Positions 32,280-63,830 of a stretch of DNA of 64,000 bases are shown piece after piece. Location of the stretch: assembly GCF_900086585.1 (NCBI RefSeq), contig NZ_FLKM01000008.1, forward strand, positions 1,995,652-2,059,651. The letters are read 5' to 3'. Origin of the DNA: Emergencia timonensis. GTDB lineage: Bacteria > Bacillota > Clostridia > Peptostreptococcales > Anaerovoracaceae. The notes beneath the pieces are model-generated. The model did no database searches, was not told the origin of the DNA, and saw only the letters and a list, made by a program, of their open reading frames with translations. How positions within the stretch are numbered: the first letter of the stretch is position 1; every line of letters begins with the position of its first letter. The translations under genes were made by a program, and so were the position numbers.

Positions 32280-33422
32280 ATGTATAATTTCAATATGAAC
32301 ATTTCCACGGAACTTTTTTTCGGAGAGGATGCAGAATTAAAAGCCGGCGCCCTGATGAGGCAGTACGGCAGGAAAATCCTCTTGATATATGGAAGCCGCC
32401 GCATCTTTGAAGAGGGGCTGGGCCAGCGCCTGGTTGAAAGCCTTGAGGAGGCGGGCTGCACAGTGGTCTGCCGCGGCGGGGTGAAACCCAATGCGGAGAT
32501 TGCGTTTATTGAGCAGACCATCGAAATCGCGCGGCAAGAAAATATCGAAGGCATTCTTGCTGTCGGGGGCGGCAGCGTCATCGATACGGCAAAGGCGGTT
32601 TCCGCCGGAAGCGGGTACAGGGGCTCGGTACGGGAGCTTTACGAGAGCCCCGAGGCGGAGCCTTGCAAATATCTGCCCATCGGCGCTGTTGTGACCATGC
32701 CGGCTTCTGCCAGTGAATGCAACGACATGTCAGTGATCAGCGACCACGTGACAGGCAGAAAAATTGCCCGGCCTTTCAAGGGGACGAGACCCAAATTTGC
32801 ACTGCTGAATCCACAGCTGACTCTGGCGATCAGCCGGTTTCAGACAGCCTGCGGCGGCTTTGATATTTTCTCTCACGCCTTTGAGCGCTACTTTGATCTG
32901 ACGAGAAAGAGCCGGCTTTTAGACGGAATGACGGAGAGCCTGATGCGGACTGTAATCGAAGTTCTGCCCAAGGTTTTGATGGATCCGGAAAACCTCGAGC
33001 TGCGCGGCGAGCTGATGTTTGCGGCGTCGGCAGCCCATAACGATATGCTGGGTCCGGGCGGAGACTTTGCCTGTCACGAGATTTCCCACGTTCTGACTGA
33101 AAAATACGGTATCACCCACGGCAGCGCGCTGGCAATGATTCTGCCGGCCTGGTGTGAGCGGATGAGCTGCGCAGCCCCGGAGAGGTTCTGCCGCTTCTTT
33201 GAAAGGGTATGGGGAATCACAGGCAGCAGCTGGGAAGAGATGATTAGCAGAGGAATCGACGAAATGAGGCGGTTTATTACAGAGATCGGCCTGCCCCTGA
33301 CGATTCCAAGAGGTGATTACACCATAGAAGAATTGGCAGATGCCGTCGGAACGCCGGGCGGCACTTTTGCCAGGCTGACAGCAAAGGACGTGGAGGCAAT
33401 TTTGAGAGAGTTTGTTGCATGA
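32280..33422 (+). CDS. Iron-containing alcohol dehydrogenase
   Basis: 380 residues. NAD(P)-binding GGGSVIDTAKA (~res 96-106). Metal ligands are kept: Asp and His in GGFDIFSHAFE, and two His in CHEISHVLTEKYGITHGSAL. The family reduces aldehydes or oxidises alcohols; butanol and 4-hydroxybutyrate dehydrogenases belong here. ATG follows CAGGAGG. An own sigma-54 promoter, and placement just upstream of the DUF362 operon, suggest a role in the same pathway, possibly for a 4-carbon hydroxy acid; that is inference. Confidence 0.88.
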   Translation: MYNFNMNISTELFFGEDAELKAGALMRQYGRKILLIYGSRRIFEEGLGQRLVESLEEAGCTVVCRGGVKPNAEIAFIEQTIEIARQENIEGILAVGGGSVIDTAKAVSAGSGYRGSVRELYESPEAEPCKYLPIGAVVTMPASASECNDMSVISDHVTGRKIARPFKGTRPKFALLNPQLTLAISRFQTACGGFDIFSHAFERYFDLTRKSRLLDGMTESLMRTVIEVLPKVLMDPENLELRGELMFAASAAHNDMLGPGGDFACHEISHVLTEKYGITHGSALAMILPAWCERMSCAAPERFCRFFERVWGITGSSWEEMISRGIDEMRRFITEIGLPLTIPRGDYTIEELADAVGTPGGTFARLTAKDVEAILREFVA

Positions 33423-33430
33423 GTGCAACA
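33413..33430 (+). promoter_or_regulatory. Upstream activator site 2 (DUF362 operon)
   Basis: TGTTGC-ATGAGT-GCAACA, a perfect dyad overlapping the alcohol dehydrogenase stop codon, 72 bp before the sigma-54 promoter at 33502. A further GCAACA half site is at 33445-33450. Confidence 0.8.
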
Positions 33431-33501
33431 ACAGACCTGCCCATTGCAACAAAATTGTTATTTTTCTGTCAAAATTCTCGCATCTGCAAAGGTTTCTGTT
33501 T

Positions 33502-33516
33502 TGGCATGATCTTTGC
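33502..33516 (+). promoter_or_regulatory. Sigma-54 promoter of the DUF362 operon
   Basis: TGGCATGATCTTTGC, a strong -24/-12 match. Transcription would start near 33528, giving a ~1.2-kb untranslated leader that holds the branched element and the 96-bp repeats. Confidence 0.85.
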
Positions 33517-33568
33517 TTTAGATAGATGTGTCATTATAAATTAAGTGATCACTAATCATTTCACGACT

Positions 33569-33682
33569 AACGCCAAGCCAGCTAAACGTGCAGTAAACTG
33601 CACTCCTAGGCGACATATGTCGCTTCGCTGTCCCATTTTCCATTGCAGCTGAAGCTGCGGAAAATCGGCAAGCTGGGGCGTT
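33569..33682 (+). ncRNA. Branched structured leader element
   Basis: Closing helices AACGCC (33569-33574)/GGCGTT (33677-33682) and CCAGCT (33578-33583)/AGCTGG (33671-33676) enclose three hairpins: GTGCAGT-AA-ACTGCAC (33588-33603), GCGACATATGTCGC (33610-33623) and ATTTTCC...GGAAAAT with inner GCAGCT-GA-AGCTGC (33635-33665). Almost every base is in a perfect helix. It lies at the head of the DUF362 leader. I do not know this RNA; a folded DNA element is also possible. Confidence 0.6.
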
Positions 33683-33685
33683 ATA

Positions 33686-34696
33686 GCATAAGGCCTGTCC
33701 AACAATTCGTTGCACGAATTGGGGCGAGAACCATTATACGACTAGTGCCTTGCCGCTCGCTGTCGCTTGCGGGGCACTAAAGCATAAGGTCTGTCCAGCA
33801 ATTCGTTGTACGAATTGGGGCGAGAACCATTATACGACTAGTGCCTTGCCGCTCGCTGTCGCTTGCGGGGCACTAAAGCATAAGGTCTGTCCAGCAATTC
33901 GTTGTACGAATTGGGACCAGAACCATTATACGACTAGTGCCTTGCCGCTCGCTGTCGCTTGCGGGGCACTAAAGCATAAGGTCTGTCCAGCAATTCGTTG
34001 TACGAATTGGGACCAGAACCATTATACGACTAGTGCCTTGCCGCTCGCTGTCGCTTGCGGGGCACTAAAGCATAAGGTCTGTCCAGCAATTCGTTGTACG
34101 AATTGGGACCAGAACCATTATACGACTAGTGCCTTGCCGCTCGCTGTCGCTTGCGGGGCACTAAAGCATAAGGTCTGTCCAGCAATTCGTTGTACGAATT
34201 GGGACCAGAACCATTATACGACTAGTGCCTTGCCGCTCGCTGTCGCTTGCGGGGCACTAAAGCATAAGGTCTCCCCAGCAATTTACTCCGTAAATTGGGG
34301 CGAGAACCATTATACGACTAGTGCCTTGCCGCTCGCTGTCGCTTGCGGGGCACTAAAGCATAAGGTCTCCCCAGCAATTTACTCCGTAAATTGGGGCGAG
34401 AACCATTATACGACTAGTGCCTTGCCGCTCGCTGTCGCTTGCGGGGCACTAAAGCATAAGGTCTCCCCAGCAATTTACTCCGTAAATTGGGGCGAGAACC
34501 ATTATACGACTAGTGCCTTGCCGCTCGCTGTCGCTTGCGGGGCACTATAGCATAAGGCCTGTCCAACAATTCGATGCACGAATTGGGACCAGAACCATTA
34601 TACGACTAGTGCCTTGCCGCTCGCTGTCGCTTGCGGGGCACTAAAGCATAAGGTCTGTCCAACAATTCGTTGCACGAATTGGGACCAGAACCATTA
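33686..34696 (+). repeat. Tandem array of eleven 96-bp units with two hairpins each
   Basis: Units begin (GCATAAGG) at 33686 and every 96 bp to 34646; the last is cut at the ribosome site of the DUF362 gene. Each has a hairpin around CAATTCG/CGAATTG and another closed by AGTGCC/GGCACT. Classes: units 3-6 have CTGTCC...GGACCAG; units 7-9 have CTCCCC...GGGGCGAG with CAATTTAC/GTAAATTG; units 10-11 are like 3-6 with small changes; units 1-2 combine a left arm of one class with a right arm of the other. Arms of units 3-11 stay complementary although their sequence differs. An open frame through the array is a by-product of the 96-bp (32-codon) period. Confidence 0.9.
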
Positions 34697-34707
34697 GGAG
34701 GAGAAAT

Positions 34708-36000
34708 ATGAGTAAAGCAAAATCTTTGGTCGCTCTGGCAAAGAGTGACGACATCCAGGCAAATGTCACAAGAGTATTTGATTTGATGGGCGGCGTTACG
34801 AACGTCATCCGCAAGGGCACAACAGTCGTGCTGAAGCCGAATGCCGGTCACGCAGAACCGCCGGAAACTTCAGTATGCACCAATCCGGAAGTAGTGAGAG
34901 CCGTCATCCGCGAGGTGAAAAAGGCAGAGCCTGCTAAGATCATCGTAGCAGAAGCCGCTGCTATTGGATGCAACACCATGGAGTGCTTCAAGGTCAGCGG
35001 CATTCAGGCCGTGGCAGAAGAAGAAGGCGTCGAACTGATCGACATCAAAAAGGATAAGGATCTGGTAAAGGTTGCAGTCAGAGGATTCCGTTCCAATATC
35101 GATTCCATCAAGCTTCCGAGATTCCTGCTGGAGGCCGACCATCTGATCAATCTGCCGATTTTGAAAGCCCATGCTTCTATGGTTTTCTCCGGCGCACTGA
35201 AGAACATTAAAGGTGTGGTACAGGATAAGGTACATATGGATATGCACAAACAGAACCTGACTATGGCGATGATGGACGTCTGGTCTGTATGTAAGGCAGA
35301 TATCAATATCATGGACGCTCACCGCGCAGCATCGGGATACAGCCCGCACATGCCGGTTCCTATCGACACGCACATGATCCTGGGATCAAAAGACCCGGTA
35401 GCCATCGACAGAGTTGCCTGCGAAGTAACAGGCATCGATACGCAAGGCGTAGATTATTTCAAGGTTGCCGAAGAGACGGGACTTGGAAATTATGATATGG
35501 AGCAGATCGACGTGGTAGGAGATTCTGTTAAGGACTGCTACAAGAAGATGTGGATTCCGTACATCGGCGATATGAGTACCAGATGGCCGGAATACGATGT
35601 AAGATGTAAGGGCGGATGCTCCAGCTGTCAGGCACTTCTGGCTATCAACATGGAAGAACTGAAGGCTGTCAATGCTTATGACGAGAATGCGGGCATGACC
35701 GTTGTCATCGGCGGACTCAACGAGATACCGGCTAAGATTCCAGATGAAAAAATCGTACTCCACGGAAACTGCACGAAGAAATACCTGAAAGATCATCCGA
35801 ACGCATATCACATCCTGGGGTGCCCTCCAAATGAACCGGCTCTCTACTTGACGATTCAGAGACATGAAACCATCGATGGAACCGGCGACCAGGAAGATGA
35901 AATCATTCGTCCGTGTATGGCGCGTGACGCACAGGTGTGGCGTGATTATGTATTTGAAAAATTCGAGGAATACAAAAAGGAAAATCCGGAGGCAAAATAA
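34708..36000 (+). CDS. DUF362-family protein, candidate nickel-pincer enzyme
   Basis: 430 residues. DUF362 core with VVLKPNAGHAEPP (~res 40-52), LPILKAHASMVF and GALKNIKGVV (149-171), then HMDMHKQ (176-182). A C-terminal half has a Cys group (CKGGCSSC, ~res 308-315) and HGNCTKK. His155 and Lys165 are 10 apart, the same distance as His174 and Lys184 of lactate racemase LarA, where the Lys carries the nickel-pincer cofactor (numbers from memory); His176/His180 could match the later nickel-ligand His. DUF362 has no settled function. First gene of a sigma-54 operon shared in control with larEBC. ATG follows GGAGGAG. Confidence 0.7.
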   Translation: MSKAKSLVALAKSDDIQANVTRVFDLMGGVTNVIRKGTTVVLKPNAGHAEPPETSVCTNPEVVRAVIREVKKAEPAKIIVAEAAAIGCNTMECFKVSGIQAVAEEEGVELIDIKKDKDLVKVAVRGFRSNIDSIKLPRFLLEADHLINLPILKAHASMVFSGALKNIKGVVQDKVHMDMHKQNLTMAMMDVWSVCKADINIMDAHRAASGYSPHMPVPIDTHMILGSKDPVAIDRVACEVTGIDTQGVDYFKVAEETGLGNYDMEQIDVVGDSVKDCYKKMWIPYIGDMSTRWPEYDVRCKGGCSSCQALLAINMEELKAVNAYDENAGMTVVIGGLNEIPAKIPDEKIVLHGNCTKKYLKDHPNAYHILGCPPNEPALYLTIQRHETIDGTGDQEDEIIRPCMARDAQVWRDYVFEKFEEYKKENPEAK

Positions 36001-40095: not shown

Positions 40096-41637
40096 TTATT
40101 TCACAGCAGCCGGATAATCGATTCCGTACTGCTTGATTTTTCTCGATATGGTCGAGGCGTTGACACCCAGCTTTGCGCCGGCATCCCGCAGACTGGTAGA
40201 ATCCCGCAGCACTGATTCGATCAAAGCCTTTTCGTAATTCTCCAGGGACTGGGAGAGGGTGCCGCTTGCCACTGCGCCTTCATCTCCCTGGGAGATATCG
40301 AGAAGCCCCTTTAACATTTCGTCAGCTACTTCTTTTGTTCCCGAAGCGCAGATAGTCAGATACTCGATGACGTTTTCCAGTTCCCTGATGTTTCCAGGCC
40401 AGGTATACTGCTTCATGATGGCCAGCTGATCCTGGGTGAGGACGAAATCCCGATTGTGTTTTTTGGTGTATTCATCGACAAAGTGAGCGCACAGCTCGTC
40501 CAGATCGTTAAGTCGTTCCCGCAGCGGCGGAATGCAGATAGGGATTACATTGAGCCGGTAATACAGATCCTGGCGGAAGGTGCCGTCCGCAATCTTCTTC
40601 TTCAGATCGCTGTTGGTCGCGGCGATAAAACGGATGTCGAGGTGTATCGGCTTGGTGCCGCCGACCCTGGTGATTTCTTTGGTCTGGATGGCGCGCAGCA
40701 GCTTCACCTGCAGATCCATGGACATGTCGCCGATTTCATCGAGGAGCAGGGTACCGCCGTCGGCCATTTCGAAGAGTCCCTGTTTACCGCTGGTATTGGC
40801 GCCGGAGAAGGCGCCTCTTTCATAGCCGAACAGCTCTGATTCCAGCAGGTTTGCCGGAATAGAAGCGCAGTTGACCTTGATAAAGGTCTTGTGGCTTCTG
40901 GCGCTGAGCCGGTAGATTTCGTCAGCGACCACTTCTTTCCCTACACCGGATTCTCCGGTAATCAGGACGGTGGCATCTGTGGGAGCCGCCATTTTGATGG
41001 TGTTCCAGACTTTTTGCAGACTATAGGAAGAACCGACCAGCTTATTGGATTTGAAGTCTGGCGTCGTGGCGTTTTCCAGGATACGGACGTTCTCCTTGCT
41101 CTTGTTCAAAGCGTTAGCTTCCTGCAGGAACTTGCCAAAATCCTCCTGCAGAGCTTGCAGGGTCAGAATCGGCCTGCTGCTGACCACCACCTGGTGAAGT
41201 GCGCCGTACTGGTCAAAGATGGGCACGCCCACAGCATATCCTACGCTGGGCGGATTGGTCTTATTCACGGTAGAAAGACGGAAAATCTTCTTTTTGCTTT
41301 CGATGACGTCCATGGTGGCGCCGCCGGTGAAGAGCTTGCCCTCCGCTGTGATGTCAGAAACCTTTCGTCCGAGGACTTCTTCCGGCAAAATCTCCGTATT
41401 GCGCTGATGAGCAGGGTTGACATAGAGACAGGTGCCTTCCTTGTCTGTAATGAAAATACTGTCGTCCAACGCATCTACTACGATTTTGAAGTCGATGCCC
41501 TGCGCCAGAAATACCTCTAAATCGTGGTCGATTTCCTGTAGAAAATCGGCCATTTTCTTCCCGTCCTGGTATTCGCCGCTGTCCAGCGTTTTGCGTATCT
41601 TTTCCTTTACTTTCTGTATTGCTAAAACCTGATCCAT
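40096..41637 (-). CDS. Sigma-54-dependent activator with PAS domain
   Basis: 513 residues. A PAS-like sensor domain (~res 50-160: DDSIFITDKEGTCLYVNPAH), AAA+ domain (Walker A GESGVGKE 228-235; Walker B TLLLDEIGD), and a Fis-type helix-turn-helix at the end (LRDAGAKLGVNASTISRKIK). The sigma-54 contact loop reads GAFSGA (275-280) instead of GAFTGA, a conservative change. It is divergent from the larC-like operon, with the dyad at 41701-41718 between them. The same dyad precedes three other sigma-54 promoters, so this is the likely regulator of all four. The PAS ligand is unknown. Confidence 0.9.
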   Translation of the reverse strand: MDQVLAIQKVKEKIRKTLDSGEYQDGKKMADFLQEIDHDLEVFLAQGIDFKIVVDALDDSIFITDKEGTCLYVNPAHQRNTEILPEEVLGRKVSDITAEGKLFTGGATMDVIESKKKIFRLSTVNKTNPPSVGYAVGVPIFDQYGALHQVVVSSRPILTLQALQEDFGKFLQEANALNKSKENVRILENATTPDFKSNKLVGSSYSLQKVWNTIKMAAPTDATVLITGESGVGKEVVADEIYRLSARSHKTFIKVNCASIPANLLESELFGYERGAFSGANTSGKQGLFEMADGGTLLLDEIGDMSMDLQVKLLRAIQTKEITRVGGTKPIHLDIRFIAATNSDLKKKIADGTFRQDLYYRLNVIPICIPPLRERLNDLDELCAHFVDEYTKKHNRDFVLTQDQLAIMKQYTWPGNIRELENVIEYLTICASGTKEVADEMLKGLLDISQGDEGAVASGTLSQSLENYEKALIESVLRDSTSLRDAGAKLGVNASTISRKIKQYGIDYPAAVK

Positions 41638-52782: not shown

Positions 52783-52927
52783 TGTATACGATGAACTCCA
52801 ATCCGGCGAGCAGTAAAACGCACAAAATCAAAGTTTTGGGCATTTCTTGCATGAGACCTGCCAGCGATTTGCTATGCAAACCGGGCTAGGGCCTCAAAGA
52901 CGGGGAGTTCAGCATGAATTCTGTCAT
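52772..52927 (-). pseudogene. Small membrane-peptide ORF with internal amber codon
   Basis: Minus-strand frame from ATG 52927 (AGAGGTG before it) reads MTEFMLNSPSLRP, a TAG, then PGLHSKSLAGLMQEMPKT and a hydrophobic helix (LILCVLLLAGLEFIVYIIF). The part after TAG has its own ATG near 52849. Either a broken 51-residue protein or a 26-residue membrane peptide; chance is possible. Confidence 0.3.
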
Positions 52928-52991
52928 GCAAATCACCTCTTGTTCTTTGGACAGAATATCATCAAAATAAATTCTTGCAGAGCGTCACGAT

Positions 52992-63119: not shown

Positions 63120-63278
63120 CGGAATTTTTTTTCTGTCGAAGAGACGGCTTTCTGTTGCGAGAGGATTGATTACATGATAGAATATTTGTATCAGGCTAAT
63201 GACGAGCGTAGGCGAAAACAGAACGTAGTGTTTGCGGTTGAATGATAACCAAAGACGACAGAAAGAGAGGTGCATCTT

Positions 63279-63830
63279 TTGTCGAAGGAAACAGAAATGA
63301 TCTTAGAAGCGCTCAAGGATTTACAGGGTGGTATGACAGAGTTGAAACAAGAAATGTCAACTACGAAAACAGAGCTGCAGAAGGAAATAGCGAGTACGAG
63401 AACAGAGCTGCAGAAGGAGATGTCGACTACGAAAACAGAGCTTCAAGGGGAGATAGGCTCACTGAAAAAAGAGATGTCAGACACCAGAACAGAGCTGCAA
63501 GGTGAGATAGGTTTATTGAAAAAAGAGATGACATTGGTGAAGGATGACATCACATCGATGAAAGGTGACATCAGTTCACTGAAAAATGAGACGACGTTGA
63601 TGAAGAGTGAGATGACCTCATTGAAGAACCAGACTAAATCGATCAAGGTGATTCTTGAAAATGTAACGAACCGTCATCTCAAAACGATTGCAGAAGGGCA
63701 TTGCGATTTGTCCAGAAAGCTGGATGAAGCCATCAAGGGAAATGTTGATGAAGAACAGCTTCTGGTTCGTGTCGGTCTGCTGGAAGATGATGTAAGGTTA
63801 CTAAAAGAAAAGGTAAATACAATTGCATAG
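63279..63830 (+). CDS. Coiled-coil protein with repeated heptads
   Basis: 183 residues. Residues ~15-120 are a long coiled coil with near-repeats of TELQKEMSTTKTELQ and SLKKEM type, 11-14 residues each. The last ~60 residues (NRHLKTIAEGHCDLSRKLDE) resemble a tail seen in many clostridial proteins of unknown role. TTG at 63279 is chosen for AGAGAGG eight bases before; ATG at 63297 or GTG at 63270 are alternatives. Confidence 0.65.
   Translation: MSKETEMILEALKDLQGGMTELKQEMSTTKTELQKEIASTRTELQKEMSTTKTELQGEIGSLKKEMSDTRTELQGEIGLLKKEMTLVKDDITSMKGDISSLKNETTLMKSEMTSLKNQTKSIKVILENVTNRHLKTIAEGHCDLSRKLDEAIKGNVDEEQLLVRVGLLEDDVRLLKEKVNTIA

Follow-up and report, generated by a model that had tools for sequence, protein, structure and literature searches.

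A tandem hairpin array in the DUF362 leader of Emergencia timonensis as a probable local amplification of a dispersed DNA repeat

The leader of a DUF362 gene in Emergencia timonensis contains an exact tandem array of hairpin-forming units, which we regard, with a probability of about 0.75, as the locally amplified form of a two-hairpin DNA repeat, dispersed and non-autonomous, whose palindromes are kept up at the DNA level. Within the window (the whole stretch of 64,000 nucleotides that was analysed), Tandem Repeats Finder placed the array at 33685-34696 with a period of 96, 10.5 copies, 96% matches and 0% indels. The word GCATAAGG was found 11 times between 33686 and 34646 in steps of exactly 96 bp, and the eleven 96-bp units with two alternating hairpins that were reported in the preliminary description are confirmed by both measures. 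On the plus strand, eleven A hairpins (GCATAAGG...CCATTA) alternate with ten B hairpins (AGTGCC...GGCACT), giving ten complete A+B units; unit 11 ends after hairpin A. In a full unit, hairpin A reads GCATAAGG-TCTG-TCC..CAATTCG/CGAATTG..GGAC-CAGA-ACCATTA and hairpin B reads AGTGCC..GGCACT.

The array lies between a sigma-54-type promoter and the DUF362 start. The promoter that had been proposed ahead of the array was found as TGGCAT-N5-TTGC at 33502-33516 (plus strand, TGGCAT-GATCT-TTGC), and the position of the array behind it makes transcription probable. Further upstream, the palindrome TGTTGCA-TGAG-TGCAACA (33413-33430, without strand) is a likely activator-binding site, and GTTGC..GCAAC-like palindromes are also present upstream of DUF362 in all four congeners described below. 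A sigma-54 activator with PAS, AAA+ and HTH domains, encoded on the minus strand of the window (40096-41637), may be the regulator that acts at the DUF362 promoter. The element preceding the array, previously described as branched, belongs to a further subtype of B hairpin (ACGAC-TAACGCC...GGCGTTA, 33563-33684, plus strand), and its branches are extra hairpins in the apical loop; simple B hairpins that lack a loop insert also exist, as read at other copies. At the other end, unit 10 and the half unit 11 occupy 34550-34696 (plus strand), and the terminal CCATTA at 34691-34696 abuts the Shine-Dalgarno (SD) sequence GGAGG (34697-34701, plus strand) of the DUF362 protein gene (34708-36000, plus strand; PF04015, 7.1e-48).

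Two other identities for the array were rejected. There were no matches to a known Rfam RNA, including any locus-specific riboswitch, in the window at the gathering score or in 33480-34720 at E ≤ 1. The open frame at 33750-34550 is a consequence of 96 being divisible by 3, and no stretch among its Pfam hits passed on its own. Short tandem repeats of a coding type (periods 33, 54 and 21) were seen elsewhere in the window, at 63351-63584, where they overlap an open frame at 63270-63830.

The A hairpins of the array differ by class. Units 3-6 (33878-34261, plus strand) carry the class I hairpin, CTGTCC...GGGACCAG, in four identical copies. Units 7-9 (34262-34549, plus strand) carry the class II hairpin, CTCCCC...GGGGCGAG; units 7 and 8 are identical to each other and unit 9 differs from them at one position. 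Comparing class I (units 3-6) with class II (units 7-8), 12 positions differ; ten of them belong to five base pairs with both partners altered, and the other two lie in the loop. The paired changes between unit classes noted earlier are real, and they are the result of one whole-hairpin class replacement, not of repeated compensatory mutations. The class II hairpin has a near twin before tsf (locus L051; 2 mismatches in 41 nt). Units 1-2 (33686-33877, plus strand) are chimeric, with a class I 5' arm and a class II 3' arm, in agreement with the earlier statement that they mix the arms of two classes and in support of recombination between the classes. Folded as single-stranded DNA, the chimera is less stable (unit 2, -8.9 kcal/mol, versus -10.9 and -9.7 kcal/mol).

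Units of this kind are not confined to the DUF362 leader. By DNA comparison, the array unit matched 41 places in the genome, 11 of which are the array itself. A covariance model of hairpin A (R1), built from 39 hairpins (39 of the 44 listed seeds), gave at least 78 genome matches at E ≤ 0.01, a lower bound with 150 of 1225 candidates scored. Seventy of the 78 matches were grouped into 42 loci; the eight left out have E values of 2.5e-4 to 0.0084 and six of them were never fetched, while one match that was kept (C9:876826) has an E value of 0.0022. Multiple A hairpin matches, numbering 2-5 and 11, are present in 11 of the 42 loci. The plan of the element is TACGACT - hairpin B - AAAGCATAAGG - hairpin A - CCATTA. 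The preliminary description had set a structured leader against simple repeats scattered in non-transcribed places; the units are indeed scattered repeats, but many of the loci lie between co-directional genes and hence are probably transcribed. From their N-termini, we take many of the downstream genes to be known ones, among them tsf, atpD, etfA, uvrA, hemB, murG, purD, lon and pheT.

Covariation across the hairpin A family is real. In the alignment, 86.7% of cells were paired, compared to 36-50% when slid, and 111 cells were changed on both sides, compared to 37.6 in shuffles. Twelve of the 21 pairs change on both sides (reached in 36 of 500 shuffles) and 26 further pair types occur (reached in 412 of 500 shuffles); since these two counts are not clearly above the shuffles, they were counted against our reading. 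The second pair of the A-hairpin foot is T-A in 60 of 62 rows among the model matches from this genome, a constancy that is partly by construction because the R1 seeds had been chosen for containing GCATAAGG and CCATTA.

More copies were found in the E. timonensis genome than in any other. With that genome included, 7 of 13 genomes of the genus matched at E ≤ 0.001; in a sample of the family (Anaerovoracaceae) 12 of 148 genomes matched at E ≤ 1e-4, and in a sample of the order 9 of 345 matched at E ≤ 1e-5, all nine being members of this family. Copies in other genera follow the same element plan with other B hairpins. Some of these adjoin tRNA genes (L139, L146), and one (L150) lies beside what appears by eye to be a 5S rRNA. 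In a subfamily in congener G006 (L153-L156), both sides of the otherwise nearly constant foot are changed, so that the foot is compensated; it is written as GCACAAGG...CCATTGTAC, CACAAGG..CCATTGTA or GCACAAGG...CCATTGTA. Carriage by a phage or plasmid was rejected: the array had no match in phages or plasmids by distant blastn, and a search of viral_contigs with one pattern returned no matches.

The hairpin loops of the family accommodate other repeats. A second two-hairpin module of about 86 nt, with 15 matches in the E. timonensis genome and matches in 6 of 13 genomes of the genus (this one included), is inserted in the apical loop of A hairpins without disrupting the stem (L020, 4841-4986; L022, 5169-5314; L045, 2817-2962; L030, 406-551). 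Elsewhere the same module is inverted and lies between B and A, and a third kind of module occupies loops at L009 and L025. The window itself holds another, degraded copy at 52790-52965 (TATACGATGAACTCC...GGGGAGTTCAGCATGAATTCTGTC...GACAGAATATC), in which a module is nested; its inner hairpin (52855-52892) scored 23 bits with model R1.

Orthologous sites in related genomes show where the element is missing. DUF362 orthologues with proteins 93% identical were found in four congeners (G011, G006, G007 and G002), and in 4 of 4 the array and the element are absent, the promoter and SD are kept and the leader is short. The promoters read TGGCAC..TTGC in all four, with one extra spacer base in G002, and the element-free SD regions read TTAAGGAGG (G007, G011), TCAAGGAGG (G006) and CTAGGAGG (G002), with AGGAGG or TAGGAGG; a TTA precedes the SD in 2 of the 4. 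Similarly, the element is absent from tsf in 9 of 9, from atpD in 8 of 8 and from murG in 12 of 12 other genomes in which the gene start was read (29 sites). The array is present here and absent from the tested congeners, and we infer gain in this lineage rather than loss elsewhere. Together with the dispersed copies, the empty sites argue for a lineage-specific insertion that was later multiplied in tandem. The preliminary proposal that the leader RNA was selected for the operon is not upheld, given four congeners that have promoter and gene without the array, and units at 41 other loci. Some copies are shared. An element is apparently located at the same gene (start ATGCCA) in G002, G004 and G011 (L157, L030 and L035, respectively), where the copies differ by paired changes; for L030 and L035 the identity of the gene is judged from the matching junction alone, and the gene at L157 is presumably RplQ. 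An element common to three genomes at one gene suggests that some copies are older and persist with their structure.

In 30 of the 42 loci, the CCATTA of the last hairpin runs in sense orientation into an SD-like motif, as scored by an automatic rule that asks for such a motif no more than 3 bases from TTA or ATA and, close by, a possible start (ATG, GTG or TTG); at the second L056 locus the TTG found meets a stop after two more codons, which leaves its start doubtful. Comparison genes that lack the element, in DNA fetched from the same genome, had a TTA just before the SD in 15 of 209 cases. Their 45-base upstream stretches hold 190 TTAs, so that 30/42 compares with 15/190 (p = 3e-17) against a baseline that includes the ends of upstream genes and whose genes lie in the window or in stretches that had been selected around elements. 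Four loci (L011, L012, L016 and L050) carry the element reversed, with its TTA forming the TAA stop of the opposing neighbour gene. The remaining eight are L009, L019, L053, L060, L055, L061, the second L045 locus and the first L013 locus; L009 falls outside the fused class although its next hairpin ends at an SD. A TTA target combined with loss of harmful insertions would explain both the SD-fused and the stop-reversed classes. Because fusion to an SD is much commoner than upstream TTAs picked at random would give, a plain TTA target needs in addition either selection or a longer target, and the strength of the fusion suggests one or the other.

The same junctions also favour a selected mRNA element, in which hairpin A placed against the SD would act as a module of translation or mRNA stability, by shielding the SD from upstream structure, by insulating cistrons or through a common protein binding GCAUAAGG...CCAUUA, and the array would multiply the effect at the DUF362 operon. 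Besides the 30 sense fusions, this explanation can draw on the many loci between co-directional genes that resemble housekeeping genes, on the nearly constant foot (the 60 of 62 T-A rows, from foot-selected seeds) and on the compensated foot of the G006 subfamily. We nevertheless consider it rather unlikely, since elements are absent at the orthologous sites of congeners, four loci are reversed at stop codons, and copies in other genera stand beside tRNA and apparent 5S genes.

Mismatches within the stems bear on the same question, as a selected mRNA fold should tolerate G.U and not A.C. From the model alignments, distinct rows were kept if Watson-Crick pairs made up at least 70% and no fewer than 15 cells were present (64 of 70 and 41 of 53 rows); these contain 38 G.T and 40 A.C. 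A register-free aligner, which gives the two mismatches equal treatment, returned G.T:A.C ratios of 23:17 in A hairpins and 18:8 in B hairpins. The pair minimum was reached by 74 of 77 stretches for A and by 48 of 74 for B, and the B set included some chance stretches. Taken together, A and B gave 41:25 (p = 0.064), leaning towards G.T, a weak excess in favour of an mRNA role that appears once B hairpins are included. Nine tRNAs used as a control gave 11:0, in a small sample from a tRNA caller that itself accepts G.U. In A hairpins neither the model alignments nor the register-free counts showed a significant G.T excess, which argues against an mRNA role, and their stems are near-perfect, 1295 of 1361 aligned pairs being Watson-Crick. 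Any RNA-level preference at the element hairpins would be weak. Since the test is near-symmetric, the palindromes are most likely kept perfect as DNA hairpins or mended as DNA palindromes and not maintained via an mRNA fold. The earlier case for a selected leader RNA is further weakened, as the strand test gave no clear RNA signature and the changes in the array are one class swap.

The lack of strand preference among A-hairpin mismatches and the near-perfect stems would also be expected if a mutational process alone were at work, with template switching during replication mending hairpins on neutral relics that have neither mobility nor function. Such a process leaves unaccounted for the dozens of sites, empty in congeners at those that were compared, the repeated junction words and the modules placed precisely in loops, and we judge it very improbable as the whole explanation.

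A dispersed, non-autonomous DNA repeat raises the matter of a mobilising enzyme. A REP/RAYT-type repeat moved by a Y1 (IS200/IS605) transposase, with the TAA of the foot pairing with a TTA cleavage site, would fit a hairpin with a short foot motif complementary to the target TTA, and Y1_Tnp (PF01797) is present in the element carriers G004, G006, G007 and G011. Yet PF01797, the only transposase family searched, had no match in the E. timonensis genome; it is also absent from the carriers G002 and G009 but occurs in G001, G005 and G012, where the element had no match, and nine Y1 loci of congeners contained no element hairpins. With Y1_Tnp missing from this genome, its presence in the genus unlinked to the element and the Y1 loci free of hairpins, the Y1 transposase is not supported as the mobiliser, and we find a REP/RAYT-type origin unlikely. 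The element has no terminal inverted repeats, its ends TACGACT and CCATTA not being inverted repeats of each other. TTA or TA flanks it on both sides at several sites, at the tsf copy the left side reads TTAGA, with GA between the TTA and the left end, and no clean target-site duplication was proven at the sites read.

In our preferred account, that of a dispersed DNA repeat amplified in place, the element would have entered the DUF362 5' leader in this lineage as a unit TACGACT..CCATTA, its right end at a TTA beside the SD. Amplification in 96-bp steps may have followed by unequal exchange or slippage, and recombination or conversion appears to have shuffled the A hairpins or put other dispersed copies in their place, because the array has identical blocks, chimeric units and a near twin before tsf. 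A putative mobilising enzyme, on which we can only speculate, probably recognises a hairpin with TTA at its foot, and elements presumably survive where they are harmless, in the gap between a stop codon and the next SD or reversed against a TAA stop. Effects on mRNA are possible side effects of insertion, and a regulatory reading is possible in that sense. A bolder view is that a mobile single-stranded DNA hairpin family, with machinery aimed at TTA(A)GGAGG ribosome-binding sites, places, genome-wide, a standard two-hairpin module ahead of housekeeping cistrons and so builds a lineage-specific layer of translation control in which arrays set an adjustable dose; this we hold to be unlikely.

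No account of the Emergencia hairpin repeat was found among openly licensed PMC papers. It appears to work most like BOX elements and also resembles REP and MITE repeats. BOX of Streptococcus pneumoniae (PMC3049150) is a composite interspersed repeat in which stem-loops are predicted in the transcript, an internal module occurs in variable tandem number, different repeat families are inserted into one another, and copies sit in transcribed regions. The Emergencia repeat is likewise composite, dispersed and nested, with an internal tandem module and many copies in probably transcribed regions. It differs in that hairpins A and B together make up its unit, most copies are joined to an SD at the right end, modules lie in hairpin loops and the host family is another; the likeness rests on organisation and not on boxA, boxB or boxC sequence. 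REP/BIME repeats with RAYT are described as palindromic hairpins that are dispersed, often in clusters, and bear a short motif at one of their ends (PMC3733652). The Emergencia repeat is similarly a many-copy hairpin with a nearly constant foot (78 genome matches), whereas its unit comprises two hairpins in about 95 bp, compared to the 20-40 bp given there for the REP palindrome (PMC3733652), its genome lacks a Y1 transposase and its foot word is GCATAAGG/CCATTA. MITEs such as Chunjie, Correia and ERIC are small, non-coding repeats as well; they insert into operons, where mRNA processing may be altered (PMC10969869, PMC3049150). The Emergencia repeat is also small, non-coding and located in operons, but its ends are not inverted and no parent IS was found in a search limited to Y1_Tnp.

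The best reading is that the hairpin repeats of Emergencia-type bacteria, dispersed and non-autonomous, form a new family comparable to BOX or REP/MITE. The family is unusual in its fusion to ribosome-binding sites, in the modules nested in its hairpin loops and in that a search for Y1_Tnp turned up no transposase to go with it. The question raised is what inserts or selects hairpins flush against the SDs of core genes (tsf, atpD, murG) in gut bacteria. Covariation in a hairpin is often read as proof of a selected RNA. Here paired change is strong genome-wide, yet the empty orthologous sites and the near-symmetric G.T and A.C counts point to upkeep at the DNA level, which is a warning for covariation-based RNA discovery.
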